Below are positions 31,029 through 34,707 of a stretch of 64,000 nucleotides of DNA, one piece after another. Numbering within the stretch: position 1 is the first letter of the stretch; each line of letters begins with the position of its first letter. Location: positions 1,860,001 through 1,924,000 of the forward strand of contig NZ_JANHDH010000001.1 in the NCBI RefSeq assembly GCF_026616195.1, in the 5' to 3' direction. The DNA comes from Haloarchaeobius amylolyticus (lineage in GTDB: Archaea > Halobacteriota > Halobacteria > Halobacteriales > Natrialbaceae). The notes below the pieces were generated by a model. The model made no database searches. It had not been told where the DNA came from and saw nothing but the letters and a program-made list of their open reading frames with translations. The translations under genes and the position numbers were made by a program.

Positions 31029-31076
31029 CCGGAACGGGCGCAAGAGTCTTTTCTGCCCTGTCCGTTGTTCGTTGAC

Positions 31077-33245
31077 GTGTACCGTCGGCTCCTCCTCGTG
31101 GTCCTGGTCCTCGTGTCGCTCCCGGCCGGAACGGCCACCGCACTGCCCCCTGCTGCCGACGCGGCGGCGACGGGCGGGGCGGTCGACACCGCCGGCACGA
31201 CCAGCCACGCCGATACGACCGCGCAGTCGACCGACCGGACCCGGGCCGCGACCGACATCCAGCGGACGGTCCGGCTCCACCTCACGCCGCGGGTCCCGGG
31301 GACGGTCCGGGCCGACCTCGTCTACCAGGTCCCCGACTCGGTCACCGAACTCTCGGTGACGCTGCAGTCGAACGCGGACGTGGTGACCACCGAGCGGTTC
31401 CGCCAGACCGGGACGAACGAGTACGAGTGGACCGGCAACGGCGACACCGCGACCATCACGTTCGACGTCGACGCCAACGAGACCGACACGGCCGGGCGCC
31501 GGAGCCTGAAGCCTTCTGACGTGGCGACGCTGTCGGGGCCCAACACGGCGACCGACGTTCCGGACGGGCCGCAGAATGCGAAGCCGGCCGACCCGACCCC
31601 GGCGGCCGGTACCGCCGAGGAGTCCTACGCCTTCGTCGACACCGGCTCCTGGGCCATCGCCCGCGTCCCGCAGATGGCGACCTCGTGGAAGTGGGTCGGC
31701 GCAGGAGAGGTCGGTCTCTCGAAGCGGGCCGTGGTCGCCGGGGAGGGTGCGACCGGCGGCCAGATCGCCTACCTCGGCCCGATGACGGAGTACGACACGA
31801 CCGTCCGCGACCAGCACATCCGGCTCGTCGTCCCGCGGGCCGCGGAGATGCGCGAGAAGCCGACCGACGTCCTCGACTCGATGGCCGAGGCCAGCGGCCA
31901 GTTGCGCGTCGGCGCCCGCGACCCCTCGGTGCTGGTCGTCGCCGCGCCGACCAGCGTCCGCTGGAGCGTCGCCGGCCTGCAGCTCGGGCCCGACGACGCC
32001 TGGGTCAGGGCGAGCGCGCGCCTCGACTCCGCCGACAACGTCTGGCTCCACGAGTACGTCCACACCCGGCAGGCGTTCAAACCGACCGACAGCGGCGAGT
32101 GGCTCGTCGAGGGAAGCGCAGACTACTACGCGGCACTGCTCGCGTTCGACCAGGGGCACATCTCGTTCTCGCAGTTCCAGTCGAAACTGGAGCGCGGCGG
32201 GACCGAACCCTACACCTCGACCGTCCTCGCCGAGAAGTCGACGTGGGTGCAGGGCGCGGTCTACCTGAAGGGGTCGCTGGTCACCGGCGCCATCGACCGC
32301 GAACTGCGCGAGGTGAGCGACCAGACGCGGAGCTTCCAGAGCGTCTTCCGGGAGCTGAACCGCCAGGACGGGACGGTCTCGAACGAGGACATCCTCGCGG
32401 CCGTCGCGGCCGAGTCCGACACGGCGACACGCGAGTACGCCGGGCGCTACACGGCCTCGTCGGCGACGCCGGAGATGTGGACCCGGCAGGTCCACGAGGA
32501 ACTGTTCGGCGTCATCCCGGCCCTGATGCAACAGCGCGTCCCGGCCGGGGGGCTGACCGTCGCCGGCCCCTACCGGAACACCAGCGTCTCGGCCGAACCG
32601 GTCCTCGCCGTCGGTGAGCAGTTGCGGACGAACGTCACCGTCGAGAACGTCGGCGGTCGGGCCGGCGACTACGAGGTGACCATGCGGGTCGACGGCGAGG
32701 TCGTCGAGTCGAAGACCGGCTCGCTGGTCCCGGAGGAGACGACGACGGTCACCCTCACGAGGGAAGCGACCACGCCCGGCAGCTACCGCATCCTCGTCGG
32801 CGACCGCGTGGTGAACCTCACCGTCCGGGAGCCGGCGACGCCGACCGTGACGGGCATCGAGGTCCCCGAGACCGTCACCGCCGGCGAGCAGATAACCGTC
32901 CGGGCGACGGTCCAGAACGAGAAGGACTGGCCCGGCGAGGCGACCGTCCCCTTCCTGCTCGACGGCGAGAAGCGGTTCGACCGGACGGTCCGACTCCCCG
33001 GCCGGTCCGAACTCACCTACACCGCGACCGCCCGGTTCGCGGAGCCGGGTGAGCACACCATCCGCGTCGGCGACCGGACGGTGACGGTGACGGTCCGGGA
33101 GGCGACCGAGACCACCGGGACGGTGACCGACGACCCCGACTCGCTGGCCATCCCCGGGTTCGGGCCGGTAGCCGCGCTCGCGGCGCTGGTCGCGGTCGGC
33201 GGTGCAGGCCTGTTGCGGAGCCGGTTCGGGCGTCGAGAAGAGTGA
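31077..33245 (+). CDS. Surface metallopeptidase-like protein with PGF-CTERM anchor
   Basis: 722 residues, secreted. An N-terminal signal peptide (residues 1-25) is followed by a beta-rich domain, then a zinc protease core: HEYVH at 325-329 and a Glu 16 residues after the second His (Glu345 in WLVEGSADYY), the gluzincin (M1-like) layout. After residue 490 come two CARDB-like beta domains (about 500-590 and 595-680) and the tail IPGFGPVAALAALVAVGGAGLLRSRFGRRE, a PGF-CTERM signal processed by archaeosortase A and lipid-anchored. Its substrate is unknown. GTG 31077 is preferred to TTG 31065, which lies within the promoter spacing. Confidence 0.88.
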   Translation: MYRRLLLVVLVLVSLPAGTATALPPAADAAATGGAVDTAGTTSHADTTAQSTDRTRAATDIQRTVRLHLTPRVPGTVRADLVYQVPDSVTELSVTLQSNADVVTTERFRQTGTNEYEWTGNGDTATITFDVDANETDTAGRRSLKPSDVATLSGPNTATDVPDGPQNAKPADPTPAAGTAEESYAFVDTGSWAIARVPQMATSWKWVGAGEVGLSKRAVVAGEGATGGQIAYLGPMTEYDTTVRDQHIRLVVPRAAEMREKPTDVLDSMAEASGQLRVGARDPSVLVVAAPTSVRWSVAGLQLGPDDAWVRASARLDSADNVWLHEYVHTRQAFKPTDSGEWLVEGSADYYAALLAFDQGHISFSQFQSKLERGGTEPYTSTVLAEKSTWVQGAVYLKGSLVTGAIDRELREVSDQTRSFQSVFRELNRQDGTVSNEDILAAVAAESDTATREYAGRYTASSATPEMWTRQVHEELFGVIPALMQQRVPAGGLTVAGPYRNTSVSAEPVLAVGEQLRTNVTVENVGGRAGDYEVTMRVDGEVVESKTGSLVPEETTTVTLTREATTPGSYRILVGDRVVNLTVREPATPTVTGIEVPETVTAGEQITVRATVQNEKDWPGEATVPFLLDGEKRFDRTVRLPGRSELTYTATARFAEPGEHTIRVGDRTVTVTVREATETTGTVTDDPDSLAIPGFGPVAALAALVAVGGAGLLRSRFGRREE

Positions 33246-33782
33246 TTACGCGAACTCGACCGTCAGCTCGCAGTGGTCGGCGCCGTCGTGGAGGCAGGCA
33301 CCCTCGGCGATGGCCACCTCGTCGTCGTACTCGGCGGCGATGCCCTCGATGAGTCCCTTGCCGAGGTCACAGAGCCGCTTCTCGGAGCGGTACTCGACGA
33401 CGTAGGTGTCCGGGTCGAGTCGGGTGGTCGAGACGGTGGGCAGGGCGGACTCGTCGTCCTGGGCGCGGATCTGCTTGTAGATGCCCTCCAGTGCCGTGAG
33501 GATCTCGCGGGTCTCCCAGCCCCGCTTGACGTGGGCCTTGAACGTGTTCAGGATGTCCGGGGCGAGGAACCGGCCGAGGTCGCGCTGGACCTCGCGTTCG
33601 GTGTGCTCGGTGACCGCGGCGACGGCCGCGATGGCGTCGGTGAACTCCTCGTCCGGGTACCGCGTCACCGGCAGGTAGAGTTTCGGGTCGATGCCGGCCG
33701 CGTCCATCACCTCGTCCCACGTTGCCTCCGCGACGTTCTCCTCGACGTACCCCTTGAGCGACTTGTGAAGTATCCCATGCAT
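33246..33782 (-). CDS. H-NOX-like (HNOB) sensor protein with altered heme motif
   Basis: 178 residues, a full HNOB domain starting MHGILHKSLKGYVEENV. Compared with the H-NOX numbering I recall, the proximal heme His (about 102) is Tyr102, and the YxSxR motif is Tyr131, Ser133, Lys135. Three cysteines (138, 163, 171) keep the 25 and 8 residue spacing of the zinc-binding cysteines of Shewanella/Vibrio H-NOX, with His165 nearby. It may therefore sense redox through zinc thiolates rather than NO through heme. No kinase or cyclase gene adjoins it. The start at 33782 fits the TATA palindrome at 33806-33815. Confidence 0.82.
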   Translation of the reverse strand: MHGILHKSLKGYVEENVAEATWDEVMDAAGIDPKLYLPVTRYPDEEFTDAIAAVAAVTEHTEREVQRDLGRFLAPDILNTFKAHVKRGWETREILTALEGIYKQIRAQDDESALPTVSTTRLDPDTYVVEYRSEKRLCDLGKGLIEGIAAEYDDEVAIAEGACLHDGADHCELTVEFA

Positions 33783-33815: not shown

Positions 33816-33858
33816 CACTAGCAGCGAAGTGAAGTATAAATAATCCGTGTTTTAATTC

Positions 33859-34707
33859 CTACAGTTTCTCGGCGACAACTTGTGCGACTGACACCTCGGA
33901 GACGGGGCGTTCGAGCGTGTCCGTCCCGATGACCGCCTCGACCCCGGCCCGGGCGAGCTTCGTGACGGCGTTCTGGGCGAGCAGCGGGTGGACGCAGGTG
34001 ACGAACACGCGGGCGGCATCCCGGTCGTTCAGCACCGCGATGGACTCGCTCATGGTCGAGCCGGTGGCGATGATGTCGTCGACGACGACCACGTCCCGGC
34101 CGGCGACGTTCGCGTCGCTGGGGGAGATCTCGACCTCGGAGCCCGAGAGGCGCTTCTTCTCGAAGTAGTCCGTCTCGCCCGCGCCGTAGGCGTCCCGGAC
34201 CGTCTCGGCGAGGTCGCAGGCGCCGTCGTCGGGGGCGAGAAAGAGCGGCTCCGTGAGCGTCTCGGGCAGGGGTTCGGCGAGGACCGACGCCGCGTCGACC
34301 GCCTCCGCGGTCGGCTCGAAGAACTCGCAGACGGCCTCCTCGTGGGGGTTCACCGTGACGACCCGGTCGGTGTTGGCCGAGATTGCGCGGGCGACGGCCC
34401 GCGAGGAGACGGGTTCGCCCGGGTTGAACACCCTGTCCTGCCGGGCGTAGCCCATGTACGGCAGGACGGTGACTATCTCGTCGGCGCCCGCCTCGCGGGC
34501 GGCGTCCTGGAGCTGGAGCAGTTCGAGGTGGGCGTCGCTGGTCGCTGTCGATGCCACGATGACGGCCCGCCCGGGCGAGACGTCCCCGATGCGAGCCATC
34601 ACCTCGCCGTCGGGGAAGCGCTCGAACTCGACCAGCGCGAGGTCCTCGCCGAGTGCGGCGGCGAGTTCGGCCGCGAGCGCCTGCGACCCGGAGCCTGGGA
34701 GTATCAT
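33859..34707 (-). CDS. prs: Ribose-phosphate pyrophosphokinase
   Basis: 282 residues. It makes PRPP from ribose-5-phosphate and ATP for purine, pyrimidine, histidine and tryptophan routes. The ATP-binding loop region is FERFPDGEVMARIG, the PRPP-binding motif is VVVDDIIATGSTMSESI, and the flexible-loop region is YFEKKR. The length is typical for class III archaeal enzymes. Neighbouring genes are not biosynthetic, but hisI, hisA and hisB (PRPP users) occur later in the window, as does upp. Confidence 0.96.
   Translation of the reverse strand: MILPGSGSQALAAELAAALGEDLALVEFERFPDGEVMARIGDVSPGRAVIVASTATSDAHLELLQLQDAAREAGADEIVTVLPYMGYARQDRVFNPGEPVSSRAVARAISANTDRVVTVNPHEEAVCEFFEPTAEAVDAASVLAEPLPETLTEPLFLAPDDGACDLAETVRDAYGAGETDYFEKKRLSGSEVEISPSDANVAGRDVVVVDDIIATGSTMSESIAVLNDRDAARVFVTCVHPLLAQNAVTKLARAGVEAVIGTDTLERPVSEVSVAQVVAEKL

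Follow-up and report, generated by a model that had tools for sequence, protein, structure and literature searches.

A haloarchaeal clade of H-NOX-like proteins without the heme-ligating histidine

The proximal histidine is regarded as the hallmark of H-NOX proteins, and PMC7108781 describes it as absolutely conserved in 598 H-NOX sequences. The window, a stretch of 64,000 nucleotides from Haloarchaeobius amylolyticus, encodes an H-NOX-like protein in which a tyrosine occupies this position. The locus raises the question of whether the loss is confined to one strain, and what an H-NOX protein without its iron ligand might still do. The finding that dozens of related species carry a His-less protein points to a gas sensor reused for another signal.

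The gene, its aligned residues and its fold

The gene and the sites discussed below are as follows.

33246..33782, minus strand: His-less H-NOX-like gene, 178 aa, ATG at 33782, stop at 33248-33246
33477..33479, minus strand: codon of Tyr102, at the proximal heme His position
33378..33392, minus strand: YxSxR-type motif, Y131-R-S133-E-K135
33438..33440, minus strand: Pro115, at the place of the heme-distorting proline of H-NOX (67/71 His-less tree rows)
33369..33371, minus strand: Cys138, first zinc-type cysteine
33303..33305, minus strand: Glu160, where the fourth zinc ligand would lie (His161 in Shewanella)
33294..33296, minus strand: Cys163, second zinc-type cysteine
33270..33272, minus strand: Cys171, third zinc-type cysteine
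33765..33767, minus strand: His6, fixed in the His-less clade (67/71); mostly Leu in the His-bearing paralogs
33834..33853, minus strand: AAAACACGGATTATTTATAC, promoter-like (BRE/TATA) element upstream of the H-NOX-like gene, with a putative function
33859..34707, minus strand: prs, ribose-phosphate pyrophosphokinase, directly upstream of the H-NOX-like gene (66/70 His-less loci)
31065..33245, plus strand: convergent secreted protein with a CARDB domain, its stop adjoining that of the H-NOX-like gene (52/70 His-less loci)

The minus-strand translation of 33246-33782 is an uninterrupted reading frame that starts with MHGI. In Pfam, the protein matches HNOB (PF07700) at 95.2 bits against a cut-off of 25.5, V4R (PF02830) at 28.7 bits, below the cut-off of 31, and DUF2378 weakly. 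NCBIfam gives only weak matches far below their cut-offs, headed by one to MsvR that covers the cysteine region. The closest named relatives, in the named genome collection, are Haloarchaeobius proteins. The secreted CARDB protein contains an HEYVH motif, which looks metallopeptidase-like by eye.

The best phmmer match in the PDB is Shewanella oneidensis H-NOX (E 6e-14). The alignment pairs Tyr102 with His103, YRSEK with YSSPR, and Cys138, Cys163 and Cys171 with Cys139, Cys164 and Cys172. Tyr102 had been placed at the canonical proximal position in the preliminary description, and Tyr131-Ser133-Lys135 read as the YxSxR motif; the alignment bears out both assignments. The broader claim, of an H-NOX-like protein that lacks the heme histidine and has the zinc-type cysteines, also stands, and the histidine loss extends to a whole clade. 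Alignment with H-NOX structures, which had been proposed as a check, finds that the window protein's proximal helix (residues 91-108) contains no histidine, and an alignment slip at residue 102 is thereby ruled out as the explanation of the missing ligand. Among the 80 distinct His-less relatives in the clade, a histidine occurs somewhere in the proximal-helix columns in 8, and at residue 102 in none. Tyr131 and Ser133 of the motif are present, and Arg135 is replaced by lysine, a conservative change confined to the window protein and its nearest relative; 74 of the 80 distinct sequences have arginine. Residue 160 is glutamate rather than a histidine or glutamine that would serve as the fourth zinc ligand.

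An AlphaFold2 model built with 38 sequences has a mean pLDDT of 92.2 and a pTM of 0.87. VIA-align superposes it on 4u99 chain B with Z 24.5 and rmsd 2.1 over 177 aligned residues, residues 1-178 of the model lying on 1-179 of Shewanella H-NOX. The first 42 rows of the ranking are H-NOX and sGC beta chains, followed by TRAPP/Bet3 chains at Z ~10, and the Foldseek result agrees. The predicted structure is that of a full-length H-NOX fold. The protein begins at H-NOX Met1 and therefore has no N-terminal extension able to fill the pocket, of the kind found in sGC alpha. Fusion to an output domain was considered and rejected for the long frames at L010, L168, L131 and L173, which match only HNOB and V4R.

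Extent of the histidine loss and conservation within the clade

Of 61 genomes searched with the protein, 28 gave a match, and of 392 genomes drawn from the order, 91 matched in an HNOB profile search. The named genome collection yielded 55 loci, one from a deltaproteobacterial MAG and the others archaeal; genomes G001-G005 belong to the same genus as the window. All loci together gave 213 HNOB frames, 141 of them distinct. The per-site counts leave out L001, which is the window protein, and the rows of L027 (two), L028 and L184, which are broken or partial.

The proximal histidine is absent from 80 distinct sequences and present in 57. At residue 102, the His-less sequences have Tyr (44), Ala (11), Val (9), Thr (9), Ser (2), Ile (2), Arg (2) or Phe (1). 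The 93 HNOB-bearing genomes divide into 48 with the His-less form only, 26 with both forms and 19 with the His form only; this tally includes L027, L028 and L184, adds G016 and G024 to the 91 genomes of the profile search, and counts two His-less genomes (G015 and G017) from broken copies alone. Since 48 of the 93 genomes carry the His-less form alone, the heme paralog is not required. The HNOB copies at L027 (G017), L028 (G015) and L184 (G383) are broken or truncated and apparently decaying.

A maximum-likelihood tree of 122 rows was built with column 102 left out; it omits the same broken or partial rows, as well as rows more than 95% identical. The 71 His-less rows form one side of a single branch, with support 99/93 and recovery in 100% of 200 bootstrap trees, and one change of histidine state separates them from the His-bearing rows. 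The haloarchaeal His-less proteins are thus one clade with a single histidine loss. The 80 against 57 distinct sequences, together with this single change on a tree blind to column 102, argue that Tyr102 is not a matter of chance, and the 71-row clade rules out a single mutated strain.

Beyond the haloarchaea, the histidine is kept in 8 full-length HNOB proteins from archaea elsewhere in the phylum and in 5 bacterial plasmid-borne ones. The His-less form was not found in the small samples covered, namely 8 full-length and one partial sequence from the other archaea of the phylum and the 5 plasmid-borne sequences, drawn from 16 records. A literature search, whose reach left out most subscription papers, found no description of His-less H-NOX in haloarchaea. 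What is new here is that the His-less protein is clade-wide in haloarchaea and not a one-off.

Residue 102 ranks 124th of 178 in conservation within the His-less clade, as against 8th in the His-bearing clade, and changes 7 times on the tree of the former. In the His-less rows, Pro115 is kept in 67/71, Tyr131 in 69/71 and Ser or Thr133 in 70/71; Arg135 is found in 65/71 and Lys in 2, and a YxSxR-type motif is present in 66/71. In H-NOX, YxSxR holds the heme propionates, as described in PMC8196705, and the proline distorts the heme, according to PMC7108781. The propionate-holding and heme-distorting parts have therefore outlasted the ligand, and their conservation may be structural. The clade has also acquired fixed residues of its own. 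Phe81 occurs in 71/71 rows as against Tyr in 50/50 His-bearing paralogs, and His6 (67/71), Leu73 (70/71) and Ala74 (67/71) are clade-fixed, as are Leu35, Leu37, Ala83 and Arg67; all of the newly fixed residues lie in the N-terminal half. Residues 73, 74 and 77 presumably line the distal pocket, going by thermophilic H-NOX structures.

These patterns bear on two alternatives. The first is an unusual heme sensor that still binds heme, with Tyr102 or another residue, e.g., His6 or His84, as axial ligand. Tyrosine could in principle serve as a ferric heme ligand, and it is present at 102 in 44 of the 80 sequences, among them those of lineages close to the window gene; most rows retain Pro115 and YxSxR, and the clade has gained a fixed His6. 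However, the other 36 sequences have Ala, Val, Thr, Ile, Ser, Arg or Phe at 102, and this spread, with the 7 changes on the tree, argues that the residue is not under the constraint expected of a ligand. In the window protein the propionate clamp is further altered by Lys135. We regard such a sensor as quite improbable. By sequence, the clade would be devoid of His-ligated heme and of gas sensing of the usual kind, and heme is likely to be absent.

The second is a decaying gene with no function, to which we assign next to no probability. The copies in G015 and G017 are indeed broken or partial. Against decay, the H-NOX-like gene has a dN/dS of 0.21-0.42 in six comparisons (prs, 0.13-0.32; secreted gene, 0.28-0.65) and is under purifying selection, its promoter-like element is conserved, and the clade comprises 80 distinct sequences with fixed residues of its own.

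The cysteine cluster and the genomic neighbourhood

The zinc ligands are Cys139, Cys164, Cys172 and His161 in Shewanella H-NOX, as given in PMC7108781, and Cys138, Cys163, Cys171 and His160 in Caulobacter H-NOX (PMC12329717). The preliminary description had likened the spacing of Cys138, Cys163 and Cys171 to that of Shewanella and Vibrio H-NOX. The match with Shewanella holds, but the cluster is not specific to Shewanella or Vibrio, because it also occurs in the V4R domains of MsvR and DmpR; an archaeal census (PMC5847659) reports it as common to V4R, ATC hydrolase and MetOD1 domains. Nor does the cluster by itself tell of function, since it holds zinc beside a phenol pocket in DmpR and belongs to a redox switch in MsvR.

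All three cysteines are present in 67 of the 80 distinct His-less sequences as against 57/57 His-bearing ones. Part of the cluster is lost in 13 of the 71 His-less tree rows, with 5 changes on the tree; all 13 retain a YxSxR-type motif, and 5 other His-less rows have a broken motif and intact cysteines. Clade members without the zinc-type cysteines thus have neither the heme ligand nor a full zinc site. The zinc-type cysteines are lost, mostly with Pro138, at the His-less loci L019, L021, L064, L069, L070, L144, L156, L158, L172 and L174. Locus L233 comes from an archaeon in a different family of the phylum; there, an HNOB gene that has the histidine and no cysteines is accompanied nearby by a V4R-like frame bearing the cysteine motif.

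The main rival to a mechanism based on the retained pocket follows the preliminary description, which suggested heme-free sensing of oxidation through zinc thiolates. In such a sensor, oxidation of Cys138, Cys163 and Cys171 to a disulfide would rearrange the zinc site and switch the domain on. The spacing shared with Shewanella, Vibrio and Caulobacter H-NOX is in keeping with it, as is the cluster being intact in most of the clade (67/80). Cysteine oxidation is described as an activating signal in Vibrio and Caulobacter H-NOX, effective in the Vibrio protein even when heme is absent (PMC7108781, PMC12329717), and in archaeal MsvR the V4R cluster C206/C232/C240, with nearly the same spacing, is described as taking part in redox switching (PMC3729527). 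On the other hand, the cluster is equally intact in all 57 His-bearing relatives and in the phenol sensor DmpR (PMC7264223), and for that reason looks like an old structural site; moreover, it is partly lost in 13 of the 71 rows by 5 changes, and residue 160, Glu here, is Lys or Arg in 37 of the 80 distinct sequences. By analogy, zinc-thiolate redox sensing is possible, although we consider it doubtful as the function of the protein. Being common to V4R domains and partly lost in 13/71 rows, the cluster is taken here, from sequence comparison, to be a superfamily feature and presumably a structural zinc site with redox use in some members.

Neighbours were counted for 70 His-less and 50 His-bearing representatives, the window locus lying outside the 70 and some flanks being short at contig or fetch ends. 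A same-strand prs gene lies upstream in 66/70 His-less and 0/50 His-bearing loci, and the convergent secreted gene is found in 52/70 His-less loci. Conversely, an MCP match is found in 39/50 His-bearing loci as against 1/70 His-less; the MCP domain was verified in 5/5 proteins tried, including one from the single His-less locus. Both arrangements occur in the window genome, where the His-less gene neighbours prs and a His-bearing H-NOX gene adjoins an MCP gene. The His-bearing gene (L033 4337-6422; G000:C1, about 140336-142421) overlaps the MCP gene start with its end, and the two are likely a gas-taxis pair. In other haloarchaea, two tandem His-bearing HNOB genes lie upstream of one MCP gene (L093 726-2031, L106 750-2043, L096 802-2031, L117 1363-2737 and L078 5199-6534).

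The gap between prs and the H-NOX-like gene is 23 to 540 bp, mostly 70-230, and a promoter-like AAAACACGGATT-TTTATA element upstream of the gene is kept in 6/6 genus loci compared. On the strength of this gap and element, a separate promoter is likely for the H-NOX-like gene. In 25 HNOB-free genomes prs is always present, and in 7 of them it adjoins the secreted gene; the gene order is therefore partly just old, and the prs link may be merely that. Closeness to prs is weakened as proof of function by these 7 genomes.

A protein serving purely as an adaptor or regulatory subunit, binding neither cofactor nor ligand and possibly acting on its neighbour Prs, would suit the adjoining same-strand prs in 66/70 loci and its retention in 14 of the 18 loci where the secreted gene was not found. 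Yet the H-NOX-like gene has a promoter-like element of its own and mostly stands 70-230 bp away, prs does without it in 25/25 genomes tested, the gene order at prs is partly old, and the retained pocket motifs are left without explanation. This explanation we consider quite improbable, though less so than decay.

A candidate mechanism and comparison with known systems

What can safely be claimed is a clade of pseudo-H-NOX proteins that lack the heme ligand. As the best explanation we propose, tentatively, a paralog of the haloarchaeal heme H-NOX that acts as a heme-independent, stand-alone cytosolic switch, with its pocket kept for a new ligand and with a zinc site. The most likely mechanism combines a retained pocket for a different ligand with a zinc site whose role is structural and, in some members, also redox. 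The iron-ligating histidine was lost once, in a paralog that has no chemotaxis partner at its side and has stayed next to prs at a constant position in the chromosome. The pocket would be retained through Pro115 and a carboxylate clamp made up of Tyr131, Ser133 and Arg or Lys135, and its distal half re-tuned by the newly fixed Leu73, Ala74, Phe81 and His6. Because the pocket is retained with newly fixed residues in its distal half, its ligand is probably another one, possibly a hydrophobic acid, or a porphyrin to which the protein supplies no axial histidine. A Cys3(Glu) zinc site would steady the C-terminal half and, in members keeping the cysteines, could add a thiol redox input. Binding or oxidation may then turn the distal half relative to the proximal one, in the manner of H-NOX, and so alter the grip on a putative partner. 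The sGC beta H105C variant, in which the ligand histidine is lost and the domain is described as still folded and active-like (PMC8196705), sets a precedent for such a loss of the ligand. A bolder version is unlikely, though worth stating: a new receptor class derived from a heme gas sensor, with a non-gas ligand (hydrophobic carboxylate or iron-free porphyrin), no longer coupled to chemotaxis and tied to the gene for PRPP synthase.

A prokaryotic clade that lost the histidine once and kept the fold, the pocket motif and purifying selection offers a natural test of what an H-NOX domain does without gas-binding heme, a question also posed by the sGC alpha subunit. Many haloarchaeal genes are probably misnamed by the automatic label "heme NO-binding domain-containing protein".

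Like Shewanella oneidensis H-NOX (2kii, 4u99, 4u9b), the window protein has the full-length fold, the three zinc-type cysteines, the Tyr and Ser of YxSxR, and Pro115. It differs in having Tyr102, Lys135 and Glu160 in place of His103, Arg and His161, and its gene has no adjacent histidine kinase. The cysteine numbers 138/163/171 are identical to those given for Caulobacter H-NOX (PMC12329717). The redox-active Vibrio and Caulobacter proteins are described as activated by cysteine oxidation, heme-free in Vibrio, and are a precedent in this respect; in contrast to the window protein, they keep the proximal histidine, and heme binding is possible there (PMC7108781, PMC12329717). Compared with the zinc-site H-NOX groups 2 and 3 as set out in PMC7108781, the window protein has the three cysteines and lacks both the proximal histidine and a His/Gln fourth ligand.

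The V4R domains of MsvR and DmpR share the three-cysteine cluster, with spacings of 26 and 8 as against 25 and 8 here (PMC3729527, PMC7264223). The MsvR cluster, C206, C232 and C240, is tied to redox (PMC3729527), and that of DmpR, C151, C177 and C185, binds zinc beside the phenol pocket (PMC7264223). DmpR Glu172 lies 5 residues before Cys177 (PMC7264223), whereas Glu160 of the window protein lies 3 before Cys163. The window protein falls below the V4R cut-off, and the MsvR and DmpR domains are, as described, fused to DNA-binding or AAA+ parts.

The pseudo-H-NOX of sGC alpha is likewise an H-NOX domain without heme, and human alpha is described as lacking the histidine (PMC8196705). In contrast to the window protein, it belongs to a eukaryotic cyclase and its pocket is filled by an N-terminal extension (PMC8196705); moth sGC alpha is reported to lack YxSxR as well (PMC8196705), whereas the window protein has the Tyr and Ser of the motif, with Lys at its Arg position. 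The comparison closest at hand is with the His-bearing H-NOX of the window genome (G000:C1, about 140400), which is 31% identical and shares the fold family and the cysteines, but has the heme histidine and an adjoining MCP gene.
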